The notes beneath the pieces are model-generated. The model ran no database searches. It was given only the letters and a program-made list of their open reading frames with translations, and was not told where the DNA came from. Below, piece after piece: positions 5,854 to 57,559 of a stretch of DNA of 64,000 nt. Each line of letters starts with the position of its first letter. Position 1 is the stretch's first letter. Position numbers and translations under genes: made by a program. This stretch comes from Limnephilus marmoratus (Eukaryota; Arthropoda; Insecta; Trichoptera; Limnephilidae): contig OU862917.1 of the NCBI GenBank assembly GCA_917880885.1, forward strand, positions 51,258,727 through 51,322,726, in the 5' to 3' direction.

Positions 5854-6787
5854 GAGGAGATGTACCGAATATGGCATACGTTCCTAATATGAGATGGTGG
5901 TGTTTCCAAAAATTTAAGTAAGAACAGCCTCTGTAACCCAGCCTTCCCGATTACCCACCGACCGACCTTGAATATTCACACTCACCACACCACCACACCA
6001 CACTCACCTATGAGAGAGTGATTAAGTTTTTGTGACTCACCGATTATATATTTACGCAAGTTTCACTTAATTTTTTCTCCAAAATTTTCTCCACAAAATT
6101 GTTAATCTTTCACAGATAGACAATATTATTATTTAAATTTTATGTTTTCATAATAATTTGAAGTTAAATTCAAGTAGATTTTATTCTACGAATATATTTG
6201 TATTGATCTTGTTCCTAATATGGGATTTCTTGATGACCCTAATATGGAATACTATCTCATATTAGGAAGGGTTTCCAAAATGGAATTCTAGTAGAACTGA
6301 ATTTCTTTTTGCTATTCCAGGTTGTATTTTGGCCTGTCGTAGTCGAAACAGTGTGAAACGATGTCGTAGAAGAAACAGCGGAAGACGTGGAAAAAAAAAT
6401 AAAAGTCATGGAAGCTCTAAAATCGAAGACCGTGAGATATCAGAGGCGAAGAGTGGACCTAATGTTTAGCCTGCTGCCATTGATGCCATTTTGAGTGTTC
6501 GGGAACCGATATATTGTTTTTTTGTGATTATTTCATGCAAAATTAAAAATAAATCAGTGTACCTATCCTATAATAGGAGCACTTTTATTGATATCAGTTT
6601 TTTTATTGCTTTACCTTTAGTTTAAAATGAAGACGTTTGTGTGTTTCTTTTCATATTTTGTTGACATTTTAAGTTCCGTAACTATATTTCCAAAGATTTT
6701 AATGTATAGGTAATACATAATAAATGATTCAATTATAATTAATTAGATTTTTTTACCTAAGCTATTCCATATTCGGTACATCTCCTC
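5854..6787. mobile_element. TA-flanked TIR element, non-autonomous, 934 bp
   Basis: The ends are inverted copies of GAGGAGATGTACCGAATATGG (5854 inward, 6787 inward) with TA on each outer side (5852-5853, 6788-6789). The TA duplication suggests the Tc1/mariner/pogo group, but the TIR sequence is not one I know. The interior repeats the word 'cctaatatgggat' several times, partly inverted (5880-5893, 6214-6275). No transposase was seen. Confidence 0.75.
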
Positions 6788-6851
6788 TATATATTTAATA
6801 TGAAGGCGTTCATAGCAAAGTACTACCTACATGCGGAAGTTCTAATCATTC

Positions 6852-7076
6852 CAAGGGCGGATCCAGGGGGGGGGGGGGGGCATGGGGGTCATGACCCCCC
6901 CTGGGGTGGGTCCAGGACCTATGTGAACCACTAATACCCTACTTTTTACTTGTATCTATTAGGTATTATCAAAATTAAATTATTAATTCTTGTGACTTGA
7001 TCACGACTATGTGACCCCCCCACCCTGGCGCTATGTGACCCCTCTCCCCCTGGTGCCAAAGCTGGATCCGCCCTTG
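6852..7076. mobile_element. hAT MITE, 225 bp, perfect 8-bp TSD
   Basis: The termini CAAGGGCGGATCCAG and CTGGATCCGCCCTTG are perfect inverted repeats. AATCATTC flanks both sides (6844-6851, 7077-7084). The interior is rich in G or C runs and has no coding capacity. A related MITE lies at 33983-34235. Confidence 0.92.
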
Positions 7077-7179
7077 AATCATTCCGCCATGCGGCGGTGA
7101 TGGTACATAAGTAGTAGGGAATGCGCACACAAAGCATACATATTATTATGTAGTAGGGTTTGCCAGTTGAGCTTTTATA

Positions 7180-7290
7180 GGCTCTCCACACGACACTGCC
7201 CGCAGAGGGCATGGGTTTGAGCGAACTAGCGCTGTCTCGTTTGTTAAAGGGCCGCTAGAACGAGACGCATGCAGTGTCGTGAGGAGAGCC
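7180..7290. mobile_element. Tiny TIR element (about 111 bp), Harbinger-like candidate
   Basis: GGCTCTCCACACGACACTGC at the left is mirrored at the right with one mismatch. The flanks (tata / ctatt) allow a 2-3 bp target duplication. It lies just upstream of the MADF remnant at 7583, which fits a PIF/Harbinger neighbourhood, but that link is inference. Confidence 0.5.
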
Positions 7291-7582
7291 CTATTGCAGG
7301 TCCACACTATTCGCGAAGTTGAACGAGGTTAGCCGAATACGATAGTGCGGAGGGGCACTTCGTCTTACTTCGTCTATTTTCGTCCAACCTTGGCTCGTCT
7401 CGGGCGACCTCCAGTTTTTGTCGGTTTTTGTGCCCGAGTCAAAGGACTCGAGGTTGCACGAAGTGCCTACACGAAGTGCCTTTCTTCACTACTCGGTTAA
7501 CTTCAGTTTGCTTCAATACGTCGTCGTGAATAGACGTGCGCGCTAGTAATTATTTTTTATTAGTATTGTCATACGGCACGAT

Positions 7583-7730
7583 TATGAGTGGAATACAGTG
7601 GTCGCAGGAGCAAATTCTGTTGCTCCTGCGACCAGGGCATGTTAGAATTACCCGTAGACGAATTAAAGAAAAATAAGGATTCGCTTTTTGCTATGTACAG
7701 GAGCTACCGTAGACAAAAAGATGCGTCAAT
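7583..7730 (+). pseudogene. MADF-domain protein remnant, internally deleted
   Basis: A first frame starts at the ATG near 7584 and reads MSGIQWSQEQILLLL, the start of a MADF (Myb/SANT-like) domain. A second frame gives 'LELPVDELKKNKDSLFAMYR', its conserved end. The middle of the domain is missing. The break coincides with the perfect palindrome at 7599-7634. MADF proteins bind DNA and occur both as host regulators and as Harbinger partner proteins. The piece ends in an AAT repeat and is not functional. Confidence 0.6.
7599..7634. repeat. Perfect 15-bp hairpin, 6-nt loop
   Basis: TGGTCGCAGGAGCAA, loop attctg, then its exact reverse complement. It sits at the deletion junction of the MADF remnant. 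Confidence 0.9.
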
Positions 7731-8134
7731 AAATAATAATAATAATAATGGTTTATTGTCTTCATTTCTTAGTAACAAGTAGAGATAATGATATCCCCAC
7801 TCGGATCTCCCGTGCTGAGGATTTCACTTACATATTATAATTTAATTATAAGAAATTAATATGAAATAGACATAACATATATCATGTAGCATATATTTTT
7901 TTAAATAATCAATATATATTATAAAAGAAAGTCCAAAAAAGCGTGCGGAACGCAAAAAATCAGAAACGAGTGCCGGTACGATCAAGAGAGTTATATAGTA
8001 TGGAAGACCTTTATCCCCCCTAGGGAATAAGGGTATTCGTTTTTAACTAAAGGTCTTGCTTTTGAAGATATAAGGGCTGGAAGTTCTAAGAAGACTCTAG
8101 AAATTTCAAGAAGAGTCTAGAAGATTCGAGTCTA

Positions 8135-8162
8135 GAAGATTCCGGAAACTTCTAGAAAATTC
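8135..8162. promoter_or_regulatory. Six-unit perfect heat-shock element
   Basis: Six alternating GAA/TTC units, each separated by 2 bp, with no mismatch. Confidence 0.75.
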
Positions 8163-8215
8163 GATAAAACTCTGGAATGTTCTGGAAGAAGTGGAGGAGT
8201 ATGTCAGCAAGTCTA

Positions 8216-8243
8216 GAAGGTTCCGGAAAGTTCTAGAAGGTTC
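8216..8243. promoter_or_regulatory. Six-unit perfect heat-shock element
   Basis: GAA-gg-TTC-cg-GAA, then ag-TTC-ta-GAA-gg-TTC: six contiguous units in phase. Confidence 0.75.
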
Positions 8244-8715
8244 GATAAAGCTGTAGAAAGTTCTGAAAGGTGTGGCGTAGTATGTCAGTGACTCTAGAAG
8301 GATCTGATGGTTCCAAATGCTTTAGAAAATTGTGGATGGAGAAAGTTCTAGAAGCTTTCCGAAATAATTGGTGGTGAGTCTAGAAGATTCCGAAAGCTCT
8401 AGAAGGTTCGATAGAGCTATACAAAGTTCTGAAAGAAGTGGAGGAGTGTGTCGGTGGGTCTAGAAGGTTCAATAAAGCTGTAGAATGTTGTGGAAGGTGT
8501 GGCGGAATATGTCGGTAAGTCTAGAAGGTGCCGGAAAGTTCTAGAAGGTTTGATAAAGCTGTTGGAAGTTCTAGAAGGTTCGATAGGGCTGTACAAAGTT
8601 CTGGAAGGAGTGGCGGAGTACGTCGGTGAGTCTAAAGGGTTCCGGAAACTTCTAGAAGGTTCCATAAGGCTGTAAAAAGTTCTGAAAGGAGTAGAGAAGT
8701 GTGTTGATGTGTCTA

Positions 8716-8743
8716 GAAGGTTCCGGAAAATTCTAGAAGATTC
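8716..8743. promoter_or_regulatory. Six-unit perfect heat-shock element
   Basis: Six contiguous GAA/TTC units in exact 5-bp phase. A five-unit variant follows at 8857-8879. Confidence 0.75.
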
Positions 8744-9915
8744 CACAATGCTGTAAGAAGTTCTAGAAGGTTCGATAAAGCTGCACAAAGTTCTGGAAGA
8801 TTCCACAAGTCTGTAGAAAGTTCTGAAAAGAGTGGAGGAGTGTGTCGGTGTGTCTAGAAGTTTCCGGAAAATTCTAGAAGATTTCACAAAGCTGTAAGAA
8901 GTTCTAGAAGGTTCGATAAAGCTGTACAAAGTTCTGGAAGGTGTGGCGTAGTATGTCAGTGAGTCTAGAAGGATATGATGGTTCAAAATGCTTTAGAAAA
9001 TTGTGGATGGAGAAAGTTCTAGAAGCTTTCCTTAATAATTGGCGGTGAGTCTAGAAGACTCCGAAAGCTCTAGAAGGTTCGATAGAGCTATACAAAGTTC
9101 TGAAAGGAGTGGAGGAGTGTGTCGGTGGGTCTAGAAGGTTCAATAAAGCTGTAGATGTTCTGGAAGGTGTGACGGAGTATGTCGGTAAGTCTAGAAGGTT
9201 CCGAAAAGTTCTAGAAGGTTTGATAAAGCTGTAGGAAGATCTAGAAGGTTCGATAGGGCTGTACAAAGTTCTGGAAGGAGTGGCGGAGTATGTCGGTGAG
9301 TCTAAAGGGTTCCGGAAACTTCTAGAAGGTTCCATAAGGCTGTAAAAAGTTCTGAAAGGAGTAGAGAAGTGTGTTGATGTGTCTAGAAGGTTCCGGAAAA
9401 TTCTAGAAGATTTCACAAAGCTGTAAGAAGTTCTAGAAGGTTCGATAAAGCTGTACAAAGTTCTGGAAGGTGTGGCGTAGTATGTCAGTGAGTCTAGAAG
9501 GATATGATGGTTCACAAATGCTTTAGAAAATTGTGGATGGAGAAAGTTCTAGAAGCTTTCCTTAATAATTGGCGGTGAGTCTAGAAGACTCCGAAAGCTC
9601 TAGAAGATTCGATAGAGCTATACAAAGTTCTGAAAGGAGTGGAGGAGTGTGTCGGTGGGTCTAGAAGGTTCAATAAAGCTGTAGATGTTCTGGAAGGTGT
9701 GACGGAGTATGTCGGTAAGTCTAGAAGGTTCCGAAAAGTTCTAGAAGGTTTGATAAAGCTGTAGGAAGATCTAGAAGGTTCGATAGGGCTGTACAAAGTT
9801 CTGGAAGGAGTGGCGGAGTATGTCGGTGAGTCTAAAGGGTTCCGGAAACTTCTAGAAGGTTCCATAAGGGTGTAAAAAGTTCAGAAAGGAGTAGAGAAGT
9901 GTGTTGGTGTGTCTA

Positions 9916-9943
9916 GAAGGTTCCGGAAAATTCTAGAAGATTC
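9916..9943. promoter_or_regulatory. Six-unit perfect heat-shock element
   Basis: Identical in layout to 8716-8743, one higher-order repeat further on. Further 3-5 unit elements lie between (for example near 9310 and 9387). Confidence 0.75.
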
Positions 9944-10697
9944 CACAAAGCTGTAAGAAGTTCTAGAAGGTTCGATAAAGCTGTAAAAAGTTCTAGAAGG
10001 AGTGGCGGAGTATGTCGGTGAGTATAGAAGGTTCAATAAAGCTGTAGAAAGTTCTGGAAGGTGTGGCGGAGTATGTCGGTAAGTCTAAAAGGTTCCGGAA
10101 ACATCTAGAAGGTTCGATAAAGCTGTAGAAAGTTCTAGAAGGATCTATAAGAGTTCTGAAAGGAGTGGAAAAGTGTGTTGGTGTGTCTCGGAAAATTCTA
10201 GATCGTTCCATAAAGCTGTAAGAAGTTCTAGAAGGTTTGATAGGGCTGTACAAAGTTCTGGAAGGAGTGACAGAGTATGTCAGTGAGTATAGAAGGTTCA
10301 ATAAAGCTGTAGAAAGTTCTGAAAGCTGTGGCGGAGTATGTCGGTAAGTCTAAAAGGTTCCGGAAAGTTCTAGAAGGTGTGATAATGCTGTAGAAAGTTC
10401 TAGAAGGATCTATAAGGCTGTAAAAAGTTCTGAAAGGAGTGGAGGAGTGTGTCGGTGTGTCTAGAAGGTCCCGGAAAATTCGAGAAGGTTTGCTAAAGCT
10501 GTAGGAAGTTCTAGAAGGTTCGATAGGGCTGTACAAAGTTCTGGAAGGAGTGGCGGAGTACATCGCTGAGTCTAGAAGGTTCTGGATGGTTCGCAAATGA
10601 TTTAGAAAATTGTGGAAGGAGAAAGCTCTAGAACCTTTCTAGAAGCTCTAGAAATAAGTAGCGATGTGTGTCGGTGAGTATCAATATATATTGACTG

Positions 10698-10992
10698 GAA
10701 AGGACAAAGGACAAACAGTATTTATCCCCAGAATACCACTGATCTCTACTGAACTGCCATTCCAATTTAAAAGACTGCAATTTCCAATCAAATTAGGCTA
10801 TACATAGTTTTACAATTATCAAAACGCAAGGAGAAACTTTAAAACATTGCGGCATCAACCTCAAAGATAACTGCTTTTCTCACGGTCAGCTAGCTATACG
10901 TAGCTTGCTCTCGAGTAGGAAATTCAAAAAATTTGTGCATATATACCCCGGATAATAAAACGAAAAATATTGTTTATAAACAAGTATTGTAA
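10698..10992 (+). pseudogene. Helitron helicase C-terminus (broken)
   Basis: Translation gives '[20 protein letters not shown]' and 'QFPIKLGYT', then 'CGINLKDNCFSHGQ', then after a 4-nt duplication (gcta at about 10890) 'QLYVACSRVGNSKNLCIYTP' and 'TKNIVYKQVL' to a TAA at 10990. These are the last motifs of the Pif1-type helicase of Helitron RepHel proteins, including the motif VI 'YVACSRVG'. There is an in-frame TAG near 10805 and part of motif V is eroded. Everything N-terminal is gone, replaced by the minisatellite. Confidence 0.8.
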
Positions 10993-11090
10993 ATAGTTGA
11001 ATATGTTTACAATAAAAAAATTATCTCTTATATTTTCAAGTTTATCCTTTATTCAAACTACCATACAATCTGATATCAACTCCCTGAGCG

Positions 11091-11262
11091 AAGCCGGGTA
11101 TCCCAGCTAGAGTGTTTGAGAGCATTCCACAACATTCCAGAACATCCCGAAACATTCTGGAAAATTGTTGAATGTTCGGGAATAGGGAATCGGAACATAT
11201 ATGTGAAACATTCCAGAACACTCTCGAATGTTGTCCCGAGCGAAGCCGGGTAACCCAGCTAG
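11091..11262 (+). other. Tandem Helitron 3' termini
   Basis: Two copies of the terminal text gcgaagccgggta..cccagctag end at 11110 and 11262. The 150 bp between holds more GAA/TTC words ('attccagaacatcccgaaac'), so it resembles a second short Helitron tail. Confidence 0.7.
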
Positions 11263-11284
11263 TTATAAATAAAATAAGATAGTG

Positions 11285-11505
11285 TTTTCTTTATTATTCA
11301 GTTCACTGGATTTGGTTTTAGTCTATTTGATATCAGTATATTTTCTATTTCTGATCTCCCTATATTTAGTATCCAGCTTTTTATTTGAAAATTAAATGTT
11401 ATAATGTTGAGGTTTTTGAGTGAGAGTGGTATTTTATTGTAGAGTTTAATGCCATAATATAAGAAGCTTTTTGCCCAAATATTGTGTTAGTAGTTCCTTC
11501 TTTTA
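11285..11505 (-). pseudogene. LINE ORF2 C-terminal tail fragment
   Basis: Minus-strand translation reads 'IFGQKASYYGIKLYNKIPLS', then 'FNFQIKSWILNIG'. This is the same terminal motif as the LINEs at 2400-2576 and 55490-55640. It probably belongs with the RT fragment at 12105-12690. Confidence 0.7.
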
Positions 11506-11539
11506 TTTTTATATTTCTTCGTTTGATAAATATGTACAT

Positions 11540-12100
11540 AATAAGCGAGCGTGCACATTGCAACGGCAGCTGCTACTTGAGCGTCCATGACGTGCGAGCC
11601 GTGCCGGCACCACCGCGCGAATGAGCTTCTCGCGAAGTTGAACGAGAGTGTAGCAACGTACTTCGAACTTCGGTCAACTTTCCCGAATATTTCGTCGAGG
11701 AACTTCGCGAGCAGTGTAGAGGTAGAGTTAGAGCTTTCTCCCTTGGGGAGAGGGGCGGTGACTTGTTAGGGCATTAGGGTGGAGGGCGGGGCTGGTTCGA
11801 TGATAGGTGGTGGTTGGTCGGTCCTGCGGGTTGGCTAATGGAAAAACCTGATGTGTGCGGCCAGGCTGTGGGGTCTCAACGTTTTACACCATTGGTATTG
11901 GTTGTGGTGTCTGGTTTGTTGGGGTGCGTGGCGTGAGATGGGGCGGGCGAAGCAGCCTTTGTAATTGTCTCTACAGTCTACACAGGTATACCAATATAAG
12001 TCAAACTCCTCTTCCTCCGACCTTTAATTCACTTGGCCCGTTTTTTCATCGATATTTGAGGTCTTAAGGCTTCGACCAGGTATTATCAACAACCAGGTCA
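11540..12100. other. GC-richer block, function unknown
   Basis: Holds the phrase 'tcgcgaagttgaacgag' also found at 7312-7328, and an inverted 'cttcgcga' context, suggesting a degraded Harbinger-like MITE. The 60-70 codon frames here show no recognisable domain. It separates two pieces of what looks like one minus-strand LINE. Confidence 0.35.
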
Positions 12101-12104
12101 CTTG

Positions 12105-12690
12105 AACGAAGAATTCTAGAAGTTTAAAGGCCCTTTCATACATGGAATTTATATGTGAGCGAAAAGACATTTCGGAATCCATTATTATTCCTTACTTACC
12201 TAATTAGAATTAGATATTAGTTCTACGTCAAAGCTGTTAGTGCTTTTGGCGAAGGATATTGAGTTACATTTTTTCAGGTTAAGGAACACTAGGTTGTTCG
12301 CACAACATATTCCAAACCTATTAATATCTATTAATTATAGGATGTCATTAATATTGGTGACTTTTTTTATAAATTTTAGTGTCATCTGTAAAAAAACGAG
12401 TTTTTAAAATAAATAATTTAAATAAATAATTGCCTTTTTCATCGATATAGGTACTAAATAAACAAAAGAGGTCCGAGATGTGTGATCCTTGTGGAATTCC
12501 TGATGATATATATTAAAGACTCATGAAGAGAAACCCTCAGCTTTGACTGCTTGACCTCTGTTTGTGACATGATTTAATGTACCTACGTCATAAGGTCTTC
12601 ATTAATCCCGATTTTTAACAGTTTCTTTGTAAGCAGTATGTTGATTTTATCAAAGACTTTTTGAAAAATATGTATTTATAAGTGTAGGTA
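12105..12690 (-). pseudogene. LINE reverse transcriptase remnant
   Basis: Minus strand contains the RT motif B block 'GSHLGPLLFI' (about 12480), then a degenerate palm and a 'FGICCANNLVFLNLKKCNSI' segment, then 'DSEMSFRSHINSMYERAFKT', the thumb region. Many stops and frameshifts; the YADD box is not intact. Confidence 0.7.
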
Positions 12691-14842: not shown

Positions 14843-15160
14843 TTATCAGGCTGATAATTATCAGCCTGAAACACTCATTCACATTGAAAAAATCTTCCGA
14901 GAAAAGATACATAACGCCAACGGGACTTGAGTAAAAGTGGTTTCAGGTAGAATAATGTAATAAGCAGTAATTGTTGAATGAAACACTAGTATTCATTGAA
15001 TTATTTGGCGGGTATTAGATAAGCCGACATAGCTCAGTGGTAGAGCACCTGACCGGCAATCAGAAGGATACGGGTTCAAGTCTCGTTGGTGGCATGTATC
15101 TTTTCTCGGAAGATTTTTTTCAATGTAGATGAGTGTTTCAGGCTGATAATTATCTATATA
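14843..15160 (+). mobile_element. tRNA-like gene inside an inverted-repeat element
   Basis: The left part (14855-14930, 'cagcctgaaacactcat...gggacttgag') is the reverse complement of the right part (15067-15145). Between them lie a unique 'agtaattgttgaatgaaaca' block and a tRNA-like sequence. An element with the same flanks lies inverted at 57193-57375. It is a tRNA-derived repeat; whether it moves as a SINE or as a TIR element is unclear. Confidence 0.65.
15023..15094 (+). tRNA. tRNA-like sequence (probably pseudo), loop GGC
   Basis: A D-arm TAGCTCAGTGGTAGAGC (A box) and a T-arm GGGTTCAAGTC (B box) are intact. The acceptor arm pairs with one mismatch and one G-U. The anticodon arm has loop CCGGCAA, which would give GGC (Ala), but it lacks the usual U33. 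The repeat context argues for a tRNA-derived element rather than a working gene. Confidence 0.6.
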
Positions 15161-23600: not shown

Positions 23601-23754
23601 CACCAGTAGTTTTATACAAACCTTGTCGTGACAAAAACGAACAAAAAAAAGAATATATTTTTGAATGTAGCTATTACTTTGTGGTTATCCATTATAGAAA
23701 AATTAAATAATTTAACTTTGTATAAACCACTTATTTGATGCGCAAATCCGACCG

Positions 23755-23781
23755 GTTTCGGAACAAACGTTCCTTCGTCAG
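23755..23781 (-). ncRNA. Hammerhead ribozyme core (PLE-2, left arm)
   Basis: Minus strand: CTGACGA, stem II GGAAC-GTTT-GTTCC, GAAAC, then CGGTC. Confidence 0.82.
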
Positions 23782-23877
23782 GGAAAGCTTATACTAATTT
23801 GACAGTTTCGAACAATGTTTTATTATGGTAGGGGTGGAGCTGTTGCTAGATAATAATGTAGATTGGGTAGGTAGGTA

Positions 23878-24326
23878 TTAGTGTAGAGTGGGTGGGTAGG
23901 GGAACAAATCCATGATTGGGCTATATGACAATATTTTTTGTTTGTTAATAATAGATTCATTATTTTTAAGGGATTTTTTAATTTCCAAGGCTTCTAAGTT
24001 ATCTAAACGTTTTCCTTTATTATTAATATGAAGAATATTTATCCCTGTATTTTTTTCAAAACTATGGTTATTTTCAATGATATGGTTAGCAAACTCAGAG
24101 AAATTATTATTATTAAGACATCTTAAATGTTCTTTGATTCTGATTTCAAAATTACGAGTGGTTTTTCCAATATAAAATGAGGGACAATCATTGCATTTGA
24201 GTTTATATATTCCGGAATTAGTCAATTTATGGTCTTTATCTTTAGTATTTCTCAAAAAATTACCGATATTATTTCTTGTATAAAACGCTGGTTTAATATT
24301 AGAAGGAAGATTTTTGCAACATTGAA
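23878..24326 (-). pseudogene. GIY-YIG endonuclease of PLE-2 (left arm)
   Basis: The frame is open from 'NLPSNIKPAFYTRNN' through 'LKCNDCPSFYIGKTTRNF' (the GIY-YIG core; first block IYKLK, second YIGKT), 'RIKEHLRCLNNNNFSEFANH', 'TGINILHINNK', to a stop at 23878. It includes the whole nuclease domain and linker but not the RT. It is uninterrupted, about 149 codons, so only the missing RT makes it non-autonomous. Confidence 0.85.
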
Positions 24327-24330
24327 CTGA

Positions 24331-24635
24331 AAAAATTTTATATTGGAAAAACCACTCGTAATTTTGAAATCAGAATCAAAGAACATTTAAGATGTCTTAA
24401 TAATAATAATTTCTCTGAGTTTGCTAACCATATCATTGAAAATAACCATAGTTTTGAAAAAAATACAGGGATAAATATTCTTCATATTAATAATAAAGGA
24501 AAACGTTTAGATAACTTAGAAGCCTTGGAAATTAAAAAATCCCTTAAAAATAATGAATCTATTATTAACAAACAAAAAATATTGTCATATAGCCCAATCA
24601 TGGATTTGTTCCCCTACCCACCCACTCTACACTAA
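24331..24635 (+). pseudogene. GIY-YIG endonuclease of PLE-2 (right arm, N-truncated)
   Basis: Opens at FYIGKTTRNF without an ATG and stays open to the TAA at 24633-24635. Apart from the lost start it repeats the left arm's protein almost exactly, in the opposite direction. The break falls inside the GIY-YIG core. Confidence 0.82.
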
Positions 24636-24731
24636 TACCTACCTACCCAATCTACATTATTATCTAGCAACAGCTCCACCCCTACCATAATAAAACATTG
24701 TTCGAAACTGTCAAATTAGTATAAGCTTTCC

Positions 24732-24758
24732 CTGACGAAGGAACGTTTGTTCCGAAAC
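24732..24758 (+). ncRNA. Hammerhead ribozyme core (PLE-2, right arm)
   Basis: CTGACGA, stem II GGAAC-GTTT-GTTCC, GAAACCGG. Mirror of 23755-23781. Confidence 0.82.
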
Positions 24759-24840
24759 CGGTCGGATTTGCGCATCAAATAAGTGGTTTATACAAAGTTA
24801 AATTATTTAATTTTTCTAAAAAAAAGAATAATCCATTTGG

Positions 24841-28062: not shown

Positions 28063-31000
28063 ATACTCCAGTCAAGATGTACATCCGTGCTTGCAAAAGG
28101 TCCGGTCATTCTGAATTTTTTATATGTTGTTAGGACTTAAACCAGTAATAAAAAAAAATTTTTGCAACTTCGAAAATGCTGTGCGAGCGGCGGTGGACCC
28201 AAAAAACCAGAAAATTTTCGGATTTTTTTCAGTTTTTGCTCAATATCTCAGTGAAGGAAGGGTCTGACCGGTATAATCAGTATACATACTTTTAAAGTAG
28301 ACTAAATTTGCTACAATTTGAGACCAAAGCAAGCTATATACAGTTATTGGTTTCCAAGATACAGTTCTTCGAAAATAGGCCATTTTTTCTAAAAGGTGAA
28401 ATTTTTTCAAAATGTTCACTTATTTTGTAAAATATTTTCTAAAACACGCATCCCTGGTCAAATATTATATGAAATAAAGTTGTAGTAAATTTAATTAACT
28501 TTCATTTAAGACTAAATTGATATCTGTAGACCTAACGGTTCTCTCAAGAACGCCAGATAACCAAAAATAGTCATAAGTGGGTTTTGGGGGAAATGCAAAT
28601 AAATTGTTCTCACGTCTTTTTATGGTTTTATTGTGCTGTGAAGTAAATCCATGAGACTAATCCATGAGACCATTTATTGTGTTGTGAAGTAAATCCATGA
28701 TGCGATCCATGAAAACCTATGGTGGGTTGACCCAAGAAAGGGGAATCTCCGACAGTGTTCTAGCAAGGTGGACTGCAGGAATGGTGTTTATGTTGAACAT
28801 TTGTGAAGAACTGGAAAGTTTTTGCAACATCTCATGTCCTACTGGAGAGCAGCATGTAAACATGAGACCTCCTCGAATCATCCAAGATAATTGTGATGTG
28901 GAAAAACTAAAAAACTGGTTTGCTCTCCACCCTCCATTTCCCAAAACTGACAGTTTGATTTCTATCAGTAGTGGCTTACTGGCAGGTCCTGAAATTAATT
29001 GCCACACAGCCCAGAGAGTTGGAACGGAGGGAGTGATGAAAATTGTTGGGCAAATGTACGAGAAGGGAGTAATAAAACGGAAAAATAAAGTTACCACGCT
29101 GGCATCGATCACCTCAACCGTTAAACTGCCGGACAAAAATAGAAGAGTGGCTGTGGATCCGCTCACAATTTTCCAGCGAGTGTGTATTGCAAAGCAATCT
29201 GAACAGGATTTATAGGATGACTTCAAGTTTGAATTGGCCCCGTTCCCGATGTCTCTGGTCAATGAACAAGGGATGCGCAAGGGCACAAAATCTACTCTGT
29301 ACTCTGCTTTCACTCCTCTTTCCAGCCACACGCCGATAGATTGGTGCCAGCACTCACGTCATTTTGGATGGTGGATACCTCTTGCACAAGGTCGTGTGGC
29401 AGCGGAAGAGCACGGTTCGAGCACTTTTGGCGCGTTATACCACCTACGTCCAAAACCACTTTGGGAAGAACATCTCCATCGTTTTTTATGGCTACCCCGA
29501 AGATGTTACAAAAAAAACACCAAAACAGCGGAACGACTCCGGCGCTACACAGCTCATTCCAGCTTATAACTCTTCTCTGTGACGCCTTTCAGAAGGAGTT
29601 TCTACTCCCAGAAGTGGCTGTTGCCGAAGAAGATGCGAATCGAGAGATCGTCATGATGGCGCTTTCAAAAAGAGCAGTAGCCGATCGGGTCGTCATAGTG
29701 GGAGAAGACGTCGACCTGCTCATTCTTCTCTCAATGGTTTAGGCGCTGAAGAGACAAATGTCTATCTCCAGAAGAGCACGAAGGGTGAAGCTGGTTGCTG
29801 TCACTACTCTACGACCTCCTACAACCACCAGGGCTCCCGGCAATTACCAGGAATGGCACTATTCACCCACGTGTTTACCGGGTGCGATACCACCTCAGCA
29901 CCGTTTGGCCAAGGAAAGGCCAAAATCACCACACTTCTGAGCAAGAAAGAACCACTTGCTGAGCAAGTGGAGGCATTCCTTCAGCCAGACTCCACCCCAC
30001 AAGCCGTGAGTGAAGCGGGCATCAAGTGCTTTGTGGCTCTATATGGGGGTGAGATCGCGAGGGATACTTTGGATTTCCTGAGGTATAAGACGTTTGTCAC
30101 TTCAACAAACATAAACCTCGCCCATTTGCCACCGACGGAAGATGCCGCAGGCCACCATGCAGCAAGGTGCTACCTCCAAGTGCAGAAGTGGCGGGGCATC
30201 AACTTAAATCCCACTGAATGGGGGTAGAAGCTGTCTTCTCAAGGACTCACCCCCATCCTCACCACGATGGATCCCGCACCTCCTGCCCTTCTGCGAAAAA
30301 TTTCATGTAAATGCAAGAAAGGATGCTCTGGGAGCTGCTCGTGCAGAGAGGCTGGGCTCCATTGCTCAGTCCTCTGTCAGTCATGCGGTGACAAATTGTG
30401 CATTAAAATCCCGGATGTGGAGCTGAAATGCTCGGACGATGAAGATGACCCGACTACAGACTGGGCGCCTCTCTCAGCGTCCATCACAGATATCGAGACA
30501 CCTTCTTCGTGCGAGCCTAAGCCCGGGCCATCTAAGATAAAAAGAAAGACATGATTTGGCAACCAAGACACAATACCTACATGATTTGTATTAGTTTAAT
30601 TTTTTGTTTACATGTAATTTGTCCTTATAGTAGGTACCATGATGTTTGTACAAGCATTTTAGTATGTAGATATATAAAACAATGTTTGAAGATGACGTAA
30701 TTCCCGAGAGATTTATTATCTTTTCTTTTTTTCATCAAAAATTTGTTAACAAAAACAAAAAAAATTGTAACTATTTGATAAATAAAACCATAAAAAGACG
30801 TGAGAACAGTGTATTTGCATTTCTCCCCAAAACCCACTTATGACGGTTTTTGGTTATCTGGCGTTCTTGAGAGAACCGTTAGGTCTACAGATAACAATCT
30901 AGTCTTAAATGAAATCAAATTAAATTTACTACAACTCTATTTCATATAATATTTGACGTGGGATGCGTGTTTTAGAAAATATTTTACAAAATAAGTGACC

Positions 31001-31358
31001 ATTTTGAAAAAAATTTCATTTTTTGGAAAAAATGGCCTATTTTCGAAGAACTGTATCTTGGAAACCAATGACTGTATATAGCTTTCTTTGGTCTCAAATT
31101 GTAGCAAATTTAGTCTACTTGAAAACTGTGTATACTGATTATACCGGTCAGACCCTTCCTTCACTGAGATATTGAGCAAAAACTGAAAAAAATCCGAAAA
31201 TTTCCTGGTTTTTTGGGTCCACCGCCGCTCGCACAGCACTTTCGAAGTTGTAAAAAATTTTTTTTAATACTGGTTTAGATCCTAACAACATATAAAAAAT
31301 TCAGAATGACCGGACCTTTTGCAAGCACGACCCCCTTTTCATGTTTAACTTGACTGGA
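28063..31358. mobile_element. DNA element with about 570-bp terminal inverted repeats
   Basis: 28063-28632 and 30780-31358 are inverted copies about 570-580 bp long, with scattered substitutions. The outer match includes 'gcttgcaaaaggtccggtca' and 'ccagtcaag', the inner 'aagacgtgagaac' and 'tggttttat'. The interior holds one broken plus-strand gene (28697-30554). No clear target duplication was found, so the outer limits are approximate. Very long TIRs are known in several DNA transposon groups. The cargo here (FEN1-like nuclease plus CXC) does not match the DDE transposases I know. Confidence 0.75.
28697..30554 (+). pseudogene. FEN1/XPG-like nuclease with C-terminal CXC domain (broken)
   Basis: The order seen is: 'DSVLARWTAGMVFMLNICEE' and 'QHVNMRPPRI' (unknown N-terminal region), 'LAPFPMSLVNEQGMRKGTKS', 'ILDGGYLLHKVVW' (29355), 'ISIVFYGYPEDVTK', 'EEDANREIV', 'VIVGEDVDLLILL' (29695), 'FTGCDTTSAPFGQGKAKIT' (29870), 'LAHLPPTEDAAGHHAARCYL', and a CXC block CKCKKGCSGSCSCREAGLHC (30300-30370) before an acidic tail. 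The D-G-G-Y start, VFDG-like, EDVD and GCD...GxK blocks parallel the N, I and helix-hairpin regions of FEN1/XPG nucleases; CXC is a zinc-binding DNA motif. TAG codons at 29213 and 30225 and at least two frameshifts (about 29330-29350, 29510-29570) kill it, and the VFDG Asp is Tyr. Many insect genomes hold similar multi-copy proteins. The nuclease reading is inference. Confidence 0.7.
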
Positions 31359-32593: not shown

Positions 32594-33080
32594 TTGGATA
32601 AATCAATAGAACTGACTGATCTCACCACAAATATGAAAGAAAATCTTATAGATTTAGCTGCTGACGGCATGCTTAAAATGGCATTTCATGCTCAAAGTGT
32701 TGACGTGTTTTGGATGAAAAGAAAAGAAGAGTGTCCAGAGCTGGCAAGATCATCTAAAAATATTAGTGCTATTTACCACTTCATACTTATGTGAACTGAC
32801 ATTCTCTTCAATGGTGGACATTCTAACTAAAATTATTAGTGCCCATACTTATGTGAACTGACATTCTCTTCAATGGTGGACATTCTAACTAAAAGTATTA
32901 GTGCCATTTGCCACTTTATACTTATGTGAACTGACATTCTCTTCAATGGTGGACATTCTAACAAAAATTATTAGTGCCATTTGCCACTTCATACTTATGT
33001 GAACTGACATTTTCTTCATTGGTGGACATTCAAACTAAAAAGAGAAACAGACTTAGGACGAATTTTGTTTTCGAAAAATT
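32594..33080 (+). pseudogene. hAT transposase C-terminal fragment (ZBED type)
   Basis: 'LTDLTTNMKENLIDLAADGM', 'FHAQSVDVFWMKRKEECPEL' and finally 'MPFATSYLCELTFSSLVDIQ', 'TKKRNRLRT' form the end of the hAT domain, including the dimerisation motif YLCE.TFS. The last exon-like stretch is expanded into four tandem copies (see next entry), which breaks the frame. The DDE part is not present. Confidence 0.78.
32785..33010 (+). repeat. Tandem amplification of the hAT dimerisation-motif coding segment
   Basis: 'cttatgtgaactgacattct' starts at 32785, 32848, 32921 and 32993 (spacing 63, 73, 72 bp). Each unit codes for the YLCELTFSS.VDI motif. Confidence 0.85.
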
Positions 33081-33320: not shown

Positions 33321-33530
33321 CATATTGTAGCGCTTGGTAATCGGTCCGACGCACGGATCCGAATACTTTCTCCCTCACGCATAGCGCCGTCTCGCTCGGC
33401 AACTTTCGCCTCGCCACCCGGACGCGAAGACACCCCATTGGCTGAGCTACCCCCTCCCCTCCATCGCCAGCTGGCACTACCCTGCCCTAAGGGGTATATA
33501 ATACAGTGCAGGCCTATATGAAATCAGTCT

Positions 33531-33970
33531 AGCCGGACTCCTGGTTGAACTAAGCTACAGTATCCTAGTGGTCACTACTCAGTTAACAAAACCAATACCA
33601 AGTCGAGAGAGCCCTCTAGGTCCTCCTTGGGAATTGAGTAGCTGGTCTCCTGGTTAAACTAAGCAACAGCATCCTAGTGGTCAGTGCTCGGTTAACTAAA
33701 CCAGTACCAAGTCGAGAGATCCCTCTGGGTCCCCTTGGGAATTAGAGTTGCCGGTCTCCTGGTTAAACTAAGCAACAGCATCCTACTGGTCAGTGCTCGG
33801 TTAACTAAACCAGTACCAAGTCGAGAGAGCCCTCTGGGTCCTCCTTGGGAATTAGAGTAGCCGGTCTCCTGGTTAAACTAAGCCACAGCATCCTAGTGGT
33901 CAGTGCTCGGTTAACTAAACCAGTACCAAGTCGAGAGAGTCCTCTGGGTCCTCCTTGGGAATTCAAGTAA
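33531..33970 (+). repeat. 110-bp tandem repeat, four units
   Basis: Units start at about 33531, 33641, 33751 and 33861, each with 'ggtctcctggttaaactaag' and 'accaagtcgagagagccctc'. They lie just downstream of the TATA box and would be transcribed from it. Confidence 0.88.
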
Positions 33971-46309: not shown

Positions 46310-46870
46310 AAATCAATATTTGTTTGTTTATTTGTGTGTTTGTTTGTATGTTTGTTTATTTATTTGTATGTTATGCGCTGCCATACCGTTCATCCGATTG
46401 CGATGAATCTTGGGTGATTTGTTGTGCGCACACCCGGGAAGGTTATAGGCTATTTAGGTATAATGGTAAGCTCTGGCGGATGAAATTTGTACAAATGAAA
46501 ATGAGTGTATCTATATATAAAAAATTCAAAATATGTTTGTTTCTGGGTTTGTATTTACGAATATATACATATATATATATATATATATGTCTGCTGTGCG
46601 TTACTAAACCATTCATCCGATTGCGATGAAATTTTGGGGATTTGATGTGCGGATCACCTCGATTCTTTCTGTGTAAATTAGTGAGCTCTGCCATCATGAA
46701 ATTATGCATTGCTAAACCGTTCATCAGATTGCGATGAAACTTTGGGGTTTTGATGTGCGCTTGACGGCGATGATTTCTATATAAAATAGTGAGCTCTGGC
46801 ATCATGATATTATACATTGCCAAACCGTTCATACGATTGCGATGATACTTTGGGATTTGATGTGCGCATG
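46310..46870 (+). repeat. Irregular tandem repeat (about 120-240 bp units) with microsatellites
   Basis: The phrase 'accgttcatccgattgcgatga' and variants recurs at about 46386, 46608, 46713 and 46822, followed each time by 'ttgatgtgcg' wording. Microsatellites (TTTG)n at 46321 and (TA)n at 46565 lie in the array. 'tctatatataaaaaattcaa' at 46509 looks like a Helitron 5' end. The 173-codon minus-strand frame through it is composition-driven. Confidence 0.7.
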
Positions 46871-56740: not shown

Positions 56741-56946
56741 ATAAACATGTTTATATCATCCTTAGTAAACAGGTCATAATTTTTTTTTCTCTTTCGTGAT
56801 ACATTCACGCCAATTTCGCGATACATTCATTCATGCCACTTTCTTACACTTGTTCTACAAAGCCCACGAAAAGTGCTTTTTTCTCCGACCAAGTTTTCAA
56901 TTAACAAAAACTGTTAAAATATGTGTTTAGTCGATCCTCTTCCGTT

Positions 56947-57100
56947 ATTTTCTAACAACATAACTAATGTAGGTATCTGTGCCACCTCGCCACCTGTATT
57001 TTCTAACAACATAACTAATGTAGGTATCTGTGCCACCTCGCCACCTGTATTTTCTAACAACATAACTAATGTAGGTATCTGTGCCACCTCGCCACCTGTA
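56947..57100 (+). repeat. 51-bp tandem repeat, three units
   Basis: Units start at 56947, 56998 and 57049 and are nearly identical ('attttctaacaacataacta...'). Because 51 is a multiple of 3, a 17-residue peptide repeats in frame; no sign that it is translated. Confidence 0.92.
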
Positions 57101-57192
57101 TCTATCTGGACAATTGATGTGAATACTATTTCTATCTATCTTATTTTCACAGACTTTTGTGGCTTCAATTGGTGTTACAATTATTATAAGCA

Positions 57193-57375
57193 ATAATTAT
57201 CAGCCTGAAACACTCATCTACATTGAAAAATCTTCCGAGAAAAGATACTTGCCGCCAACGGGACTTGAACCCGTGTGCTTCTGATTGCCGGTCAGTTGCT
57301 CTTGACCACGCTATGGCGGCTTATCAAATACTCGCCAAATAAATCAATATATACTAGTGTTTCATTCAACAATTA
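57193..57375 (-). mobile_element. tRNA-containing element, second copy
   Basis: Reverse complement of the 14940-15160 element: 'agtaattgttgaatgaaaca', then the tRNA-like sequence, then 'agtatcttttctcggaagat' and 'gagtgtttcaggctgataat'. Only one orientation is present here, unlike the inverted copy at 14843. Confidence 0.75.
57250..57320 (-). tRNA. tRNA-like sequence, loop GGC, altered D-arm
   Basis: The acceptor arm GCCGCCA/TGGCGGC pairs perfectly and the B box GGGTTCAAGTCCC is canonical. The D-arm reads TAGCGTGGTCAAGAGC, a rearranged A box. The anticodon loop is CCGGCAA, again without U33. Probably a tRNA-derived repeat. Confidence 0.6.
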
Positions 57376-57559
57376 CTGCTTATTATATTTAAATTTAAAA
57401 AAATTTTTAAAAATAATTATCAATTGGTGTTGTTCATATTTTCCGCTCTACGTTTTGTACCCGGCATACCCTTTCCCCAAGACTCTGATTCTGATTTTTT
57501 TAAATCTCCTGAAGAAATAAAATATCAGAATTCAGTGATAAAAAAAACATCCATATCAA

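Follow-up and report, generated by a model that had tools for sequence, protein, structure and literature searches.

The 64-kb window (the whole stretch of DNA analyzed here) contains a 3354-bp non-autonomous Helitron on the forward strand at 7909..11262, within which lies a dense array of heat-shock elements (HSEs; Table 1). Its ends are those of a canonical Helitron (5′ TC, 3′ CTRR, insertion between A and T), with an A before the TC and a T after the CTAG that closes at 11262. The first 182 bp aligned from base 1 with other copies, at 93–95% identity in three and 96–98% in two more, and a search with 7909–8300 gave 2316 first-look candidates, 40 of which were scored (the window included), all matching at 91–100% and 38 from end to end. 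An A stood directly before the TC at nine of nine 5′ ends inspected, that of the window among them, while the T after CTAG in other copies is not independent evidence because the 3′-end query demanded it. The GC-rich hairpin near the 3′ end typical of canonical Helitrons is present but weak, since its six pairs with one bulge, located 12 nt from the end, gave a DNA fold of −4.4 kcal/mol (z = −1.6) that was equalled by 14 of 200 shuffles. Joined flanks corresponding to an empty, pre-insertion site were not found among the genomic loci read.

Table 1 Features of the Helitron in the window.
Feature	Position	Strand	Remarks
5′ terminal region, TCAATATATATT...	7909..8090	+	common to autonomous copies
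HSE minisatellite	8081..10675 (end approximate)	+	holds 27 of the 28 HSE runs; 30-bp and 51-bp modules
First HSE run, 3 units	8100..8112	+	offset 192 from 5′ end
Six-unit HSE without mismatch	8135..8162	+	exact-run scan
Six-unit HSE without mismatch	8216..8243	+	exact-run scan
Six-unit HSE without mismatch	8716..8743	+	exact-run scan
Six-unit HSE without mismatch	9916..9943	+	exact-run scan
Internal copy of 5′-terminal motif, ATCAATATATATT	10680..10692	+	at internal-deletion junction
Helicase C-terminus remnant, frame broken	10692..10992	+	stop 10990-10992; pieces match C1 helicase end
Internal 3′-end-like sequence, CTAG-terminated	11083..11110	+	93% over 28 bp vs true 3′ end; in autonomous copy too
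HSE run, 3 units, 3′ subterminal region	11170..11182	+	exact-run scan
3′ terminus	11235..11262	+	hairpin 11235-11250, then 12 nt ending CTAG

An exact-match scan of the window for GAA and TTC alternating at 5-bp steps detected 28 runs of at least three units, every one inside the element, where all 51 of the window's nGAAnnTTCnnGAAn sites also lie. The runs comprised 18 with three units, one with four, five with five and four with six. HSE density in the element reached up to 27 per kb. Module decomposition and autocorrelation resolved the array into 30-bp and 51-bp modules with a base period of 10 bp and longer repeats of ~530–670 bp. The initial annotation had proposed proper Helitron ends at an A/T target, a 2.6-kb minisatellite with GAA and TTC alternating every 5 bp, four perfect six-unit sites and many sites of 3–5 units; the ends recur in other copies, the array was recovered with every run of the window inside the element, the six-unit sites lie exactly where they had been placed, and the shorter runs are those just counted. 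Three-unit runs were expected at 0.11 per dinucleotide shuffle of the element (500 shuffles) and at 1.08 per whole-window shuffle (50 shuffles), figures that overstate the number of independent surprises, because the array is built of repeated modules and its sites are not independent events. As a control for post-hoc motif choice, 256 patterns (32 triplet pairs × 8 gaps) were compared, among which GAA/TTC with a gap of 2 ranked first with 28 runs, against four for the runner-up. The shuffles and this control together rule out a chance origin of the runs.

Two other identities for the repeat were discarded. STAT-type palindromes have the form TTCN3GAA, and the spacing in the array is 2, not 3. 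Long antisense frames of 191, 165, 118 and 136 amino acids occur in the element; a coding repeat was rejected on the 191-residue frame, the only one searched, for which none of 2328 candidates qualified as a relative at E ≤ 10.

In the genome (1.63 Gb, 67 contigs), the 24-nt 3′ end GCGAAGCCGGGTAACCCAGCTAGT occurred 890 times (464 + 426) without mismatch, in a query that included the following T, against none for the control; exact five-unit HSE sites numbered 10,755, against 16 for the control. HSE runs were present inside the element at each of 30 3′-end loci that were cut out, with 356 runs inside and 32 outside, the latter confined to four loci; density exceeded 10 per kb in 22 of the 30 copies, within the 1.5 kb read of each, and a run starting no more than 130 bp from the 3′ end, as in the window, recurred in 27 of 30 other copies. 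The first run was offset by 192, 192 and 193 bp from the 5′ end in three copies (L080, L081 and L083). Among 100 listed five-unit sites, 60 fell in the 5 kb reaching inward from an exact 3′ end, stretches that together make up 4.9% of the span, and 34 had no element assigned. Two copies (L060 and L062) were 99.8% identical and are therefore young. The HSEs are thus enriched over their surroundings and clustered at more than 10 per kb. The initial annotation had named an array occurring once in the genome and lacking from other copies as fatal to its view, and the sampled copies show the opposite; the association of HSEs with a Helitron is confirmed, to an extent exceeding that first described. 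The 3′-end pattern had no match in viral_contigs or genome_contigs, and no Rep locus in either was confirmed as a relative.

The array was family-specific in the comparison made. The commonest Rep family of the genome had no HSE run at any of 30 loci (1.5 kb on each side of the domain) nor in 19 kb around one of them, and was rejected as the autonomous partner on the lack of HSEs and of a matching 3′ end in the sequence read. Four other relatives, regarded as autonomous, all share the 5′ end of the window element together with a Rep domain. The only one read whole, C1, also contains a PIF1 helicase and the 3′ end of the window element (5′ and 3′ ends 96% and 95% identical, respectively), its domains scoring 180 bits for PF14214 and 214 bits for PF05970. 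C1 represents the autonomous partner of a canonical Helitron, with Rep, a PIF1-like helicase and matching ends. No intact autonomous copy was found among the four: in three the reading frame breaks soon after the start codon and in the fourth a TAA is reported in the Rep domain. Among the 120 of 2109 Rep relatives listed, the best-scoring named ones came from a spider, a pseudoscorpion, a hookworm, a fruit fly, a planthopper and a frog. Neither these nor the matches of a reverse-transcriptase frame in the window pointed decisively to one host order.

The layout upstream of Rep is shared by the four autonomous copies. In all of them a conserved TATA box stands 202 bp ahead of the Rep ATG, and the stretch separating it from the 5′ end holds 15, 27, 24 and 26 HSE runs. 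The first of these lies at offset 192 in three copies and 193 in the fourth, and in every copy proximal runs stop 139 and 54 bp short of the TATA box. An initiator-like TCAGTT follows ~31–33 bp beyond TATAAA, and the transcript leader may resemble insect hsp70 leaders. HSEs thus lie upstream of the predicted transposase gene in all four copies. An array that precedes the core promoter of Rep is more plausibly promoter sequence belonging to the element itself, retained in the deleted derivative, than cargo.

Alignment with C1 identifies the window element as an internally deleted derivative of a predicted autonomous Helitron. Positions 10671–10692 match C1 7687–7708, and from 10692 onward the element matches C1 from 12122 (reverse-complement coordinates), with 95% DNA identity over 10692–11262. 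The TATA box and most of Rep/Hel fall between the two C1 junction points and are missing from the window element, whose coding content is reduced to the helicase remnant.

We consider it probable that the window element is a deleted representative of a canonical Helitron family in which the autonomous copies have a promoter of the heat-shock type, driven by heat-shock factor (HSF). With the array placed immediately before the core promoter of the transposase gene, heat may turn on the element: under heat or proteotoxic stress, HSF trimers would bind the array cooperatively and drive Rep/Hel transcription, and the proteins could then mobilize their own element and, via common ends, the short non-autonomous copies, in which array and termini are preserved. 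Such transposition would spread heat-responsive HSF sites genome-wide, some of which may place neighboring genes under heat control. A bolder and distinctly tentative extension, which we regard as possible though doubtful, is that Helitrons have repeatedly captured the heat-shock response for selfish ends. A Helitron, probably of an arthropod, would have built an extended HSE promoter array for its Rep/Hel gene independently of Caenorhabditis, would mobilize on heat and would have seeded the genome with some ten thousand strong HSF sites, a load sufficient to compete for the factor and rewire the host heat response.

The HSF match might instead be incidental to a palindromic 10-bp minisatellite, grown by slippage or rolling-circle replication, in which TTCnnGAA is kept by repeat dynamics or by a role in replication or hairpin formation. 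The strong 10-bp period and the modular expansion would suit this explanation, as would the slight contrast between cores and spacers: HSE cores were somewhat less variable (p = 0.12, 0.07 and 0.0065, depending on which of three cut-offs was applied) and a non-HSE part of the module was about as conserved as the cores, so that purifying selection on the cores is not convincingly shown. Single GAA/TTC runs of 7–10 units also occur in nine IMG/VR viral contigs, most of them presumably from phages, which are without HSF; each of these loci, however, has one long run and not an array. Against this explanation stand the promoter position and fixed proximal HSEs of the four autonomous copies and the fact that GAA/TTC at gap 2 alone stood out in the pattern control. 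Moreover, HSF-1 does bind Caenorhabditis Helitrons with the same motif (PMC6927752). We hold this explanation to be unlikely.

Less probable still is a role directed chiefly at the host, with the arrays serving as enhancers that draw neighboring genes into heat regulation and the element's own expression no longer of consequence. The genome has at least 890 exact 3′ ends, and such effects are known in C. elegans (PMC6927752; fbxa-215, PMC12062965); a host role is nonetheless not needed to explain the promoter position in autonomous copies. The further suggestion of an HSF sink, or a source of stress-body RNA, gained no support and is very improbable. Human satellite III, associated with nuclear stress bodies, likewise consists of tandem repeats with HSF sites, and the HSE density of the window copy is high. 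The arrays read, however, are only 1–3 kb long and sit in copies of a dispersed mobile element, not in a large pericentric block of the satellite III type. An HSF1-bound pericentric satellite is mentioned in PMC11431837.

Other Helitrons offer further comparisons. Like a Drosophila montium-group Helitron, whose central tandem repeats expanded into a satellite (cited in the editorial PMC11431837), the present element holds a tandem array; the passage on that satellite mentions no HSF-site content. In Caenorhabditis, Helitron1_CE, HelitronY1_CE and HelitronY4_CE bear HSEs (Garrigues et al. 2019, PMC6927752; PMC6765114), and the 40-bp repeat of HelitronY4_CE is also a TTCnnGAA minisatellite (PMC4039745). 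The 2019 survey found Helitron–HSE enrichment in Caenorhabditis only and raised the possibility that the trait is confined to the genus (PMC6927752); the array-bearing Helitron described here, in a 1.63-Gb genome that is implausible for Caenorhabditis, would add a second case and show that the trait is no peculiarity of the genus. With the array abutting the TATA box in autonomous copies, the idea that HSEs first served stress mobilization of the transposon becomes directly testable, and ~10,755 five-unit sites in one genome would constitute a natural experiment in which a conserved transcription factor faces a flood of strong sites. The two systems differ in genome size (1.63 Gb here, 100.27 Mb in C. 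elegans) and in the 30/51-bp modules and TATA-type promoter with proximal HSEs of the present family. They share clustered tandem HSEs at more than 10 per kb, tied to autonomous copies and carried by many non-autonomous ones as well. In C. elegans, Helitron1_CE RNA rises with heat in an HSF-1-dependent manner (PMC6765114), and the best reading of the present family is that of a putatively HSF-driven, heat-inducible Helitron of the same kind.

With a run defined by exact GAA and TTC units that alternate every 5 bp, the window contains 28 runs of three units or more. All of them lie inside the Helitron at 7909-11262, and the four six-unit heat-shock elements (HSEs) that the initial annotation had reported were found at exactly 8135-8162, 8216-8243, 8716-8743 and 9916-9943. 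Dinucleotide shuffles of the element contained a mean of 0.11 three-unit runs. Because the motif had been picked post hoc, the same type of run was counted with each of 32 triplet pairs and eight gap lengths. In the window GAA/TTC at gap 2 gave 28 runs (runner-up, 4), and it gave 356 in 30 other copies (next, 21) and 15 between the 5' end and the TATA box of one autonomous copy (next, 2). Self-comparison of the array revealed a base period of 10 bp and modules of 30 bp (AAAGTTCTAGAAGGTTCGATAAAGCTGTA.) and 51 bp, longer repeats of which recur at about 8307, 8978, 9507 and 10586. The longest HSEs arise at junctions of the 51-bp with the 30-bp module and, with few duplicated modules as their source, the sites are not independent of each other. 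Further repeats of the window are listed together with the features of the Helitron.

Coordinates of features in the window and in the autonomous copy on contig C1 (the latter reverse-complemented)
Feature	Coordinates	Remarks
Window, internal 3'-end-like copy	11083-11110	also in C1 autonomous copy
Window, internal copy of 5'-terminal motif	10680-10692	also in C1 autonomous copy
C1 autonomous copy, 5' end	6326	
C1 autonomous copy, HSE runs	6517 to 7831	
C1 autonomous copy, Rep/helicase frames	~8100 to 12411	
C1 autonomous copy, 3' end	12684	
Window, hairpin	7600-7633	perfect 14-bp stem (GGTCGCAGGAGCAA...TTGCTCCTGCGACC), ~275 bp left of the Helitron
Window, repeated stretch	14954-15153 / 57193-57389	tRNA-like matches at 15023-15094 and 57250-57320; probably a tRNA-derived SINE
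Window, inverted repeats	23692-24178 / 24335-24821	487 bp, 99.8% identical; a very recent inverted duplication
Window, frame at 487-bp repeats	23878-24366 (minus)	single one tested; GIY-YIG domain (Penelope-like)
Window, inverted repeats	28086-28632 / 30781-31329	~549 bp, 94.5%; possibly a long-TIR DNA transposon
Window, frames between ~549-bp repeats	28688-30227	two tested, no Pfam match
Window, tandem array	32781-33042	73 bp; no HSE runs
Window, tandem array	33530-33963	109 bp; no HSE runs
Window, tandem array	46597-46869	108 bp; no HSE runs
Window, tandem array	56946-57101	51-bp unit, 3.1 copies at 100%; no HSE runs

The window maps to C12:51258727-51322726 of a 1.63-Gb assembly in 67 contigs, in which there are 5352 + 5403 occurrences of the five-unit pattern (reversed pattern, 8 + 8) and 464 + 426 of the 24-nt 3' end of the element (control, 0). 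The first 30 3'-end places among the matches listed, all on C1, were sampled and turned to element orientation. HSE runs were present in the 1.5 kb inside the 3' end at all 30 loci (356 runs in all), with at least one five-unit run at 29, and the 32 runs outside the 3' end were confined to four loci; two of these, L053 and L072, contribute 29, where a neighbouring element copy may be present. Another sampled locus, L056, has only about the 3'-terminal 30 bp in common with the family and contains HSE runs although the sequence before these 30 bp looks unrelated; it may belong to a separate subfamily or have exchanged its end. Among 100 listed five-unit sites (C1, 2.50-3.46 Mb; past 2.89 Mb, forward strand only), 60 fall in the 5-kb intervals interior of exact 3' ends, which together cover 4.9% of the span, and a further six come after a 5'-end copy, shares that describe one part of C1. 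These 100 sites occupy less than 1 Mb, roughly 16-fold denser than the average for the genome, and the initial 2.5 Mb of C1 has none of the listed matches.

Starting at base 1, the 5'-terminal 182 bp of the element align with three other copies (L080, L081 and L083) at 93-95% and with two C1 copies at 96 and 98%. An A precedes the TC in 9/9 five-prime ends. CTAG is followed by T in the window copy; in the remaining copies this T was required by the query and is not independent. A small hairpin 12 nt before the 3' end was equalled in 14 of 200 shuffles, only a modest excess. Two 3'-end loci, L060 and L062, show 99.8% identity across 1523 bp and lie in different flanking sequence, which suggests that element copies have moved recently. 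L080 and L083 have common sequence past the 3' end, as would result from segmental duplication or from insertion into the same kind of repeat.

At least 146 genome matches to Helitron_like_N (PF14214) were obtained, with 150 of 170 candidates scored. The commonest, top-scoring Rep family was rejected as the autonomous partner, none of its 30 best loci having an HSE run within 1.5 kb of either side of the domain and none being found in 19 kb around one copy. Its members (L018-L047, L078-L079) have near-identical Helitron_like_N scores as well as long open frames, many of 1400-1880 aa, and this family, without HSE runs in the parts read, may represent a further Helitron-like element with recent activity. 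A rarer, distinct Rep type was located on C1 at a distance of 3 kb from a 3' end, within a copy whose identity to the window element is 96% (5') and 95% (3') and whose pieces contain Helitron_like_N and PIF1 helicase domains. Three more autonomous copies (two on C24, one on C28) were chosen because their 5' ends lie 3.4-3.5 kb ahead of Rep matches, and the upstream parts of these three were read as L086-L088. No intact autonomous copy was found among the four read: three break shortly past the start codon, and the fourth, C24p, is in frame across the 40 codons printed, with a TAA reported in the Rep domain. The Rep relatives listed (P0002-P0121; 54-66% identity) come from spiders, a pseudoscorpion, hookworms, flies, aphids, frogs and lizards, and this scattered distribution suggests possible horizontal transfer.

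The HSE array occupies the space from the 5' end to a conserved GGGTATATAAA in all four autonomous copies, with 15, 27, 24 and 26 runs over approximately 1.6, 2.1, 2.5 and 2.2 kb, respectively. In each, the final two runs terminate 139 and 54 bp ahead of the TATA box, an initiator-like TCAGTT is located 31-33 bp to the 3' side of TATAAA, and an ATG (MPKRKRG...) lies 202 bp past the TATA box. The window element retains the array and both ends, its array end (10692) being joined straight to the helicase C-terminus, with the TATA sequence absent and most of Rep/Hel deleted. The earlier proposal of a Helitron carrying an HSE array was upheld by sequence, the same ends and arrays recurring in other copies, and the comparison establishes a Helitron family with HSE arrays upstream of the putative Rep core promoter in the four autonomous copies read. 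From this architecture and the Caenorhabditis precedent we infer that heat-shock factor (HSF) would drive Rep/Hel.

The strongest alternative is that the array is a palindromic minisatellite maintained by replication. Viral contigs hold single runs of 7-10 units, which suggests that HSF is not required for runs of this kind to form; a seven-unit, iteron-like TTCTAGAAAGTTCTGGAAAGTTCATGAAAGTTC run is common to three of these contigs (L001, L006 and, on the opposite strand, L008). Variability was compared among 210, 362 and 607 distinct module sequences at cut-offs of 7, 9 and 11 mismatches, and was lower in HSE cores than in spacers, at 0.131 vs 0.192 (column-permutation p 0.12), 0.171 vs 0.273 (p 0.07) and 0.196 vs 0.352 (p 0.0065), respectively; that of a non-HSE part of the module was 0.154, and selection on the HSE sites does not convincingly follow from these figures.

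As for precedents of a Helitron family under HSF control, a term search found heat shock absent from the main text of an insect Helitron paper (PMC6544945), and no arthropod Helitron with HSEs or TTCTAGAA was recognized by title or opening abstract among the matches listed, in a collection with few subscription journals. In C. elegans, HSF-1 is reported to bind Helitron HSEs, with Helitron-HSE enrichment in 27/27 Caenorhabditis genomes; of the UCSC genomes in which Helitrons are annotated, the three Caenorhabditis species were the only enriched ones (Garrigues et al. 2019, PMC6927752). The motif printed in the Results of that paper differs from that in its Methods (NGAANNTTCNNGAAN), probably a misprint. 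Helitron1_CE RNA is described as heat-raised and HSF-1-dependent (PMC6765114), and deletion of Helitrons upstream of fbxa-215 as giving a phenotype (PMC12062965). The 40-bp repeat of HelitronY4_CE, as reported, is likewise a TTCnnGAA minisatellite (PMC4039745).
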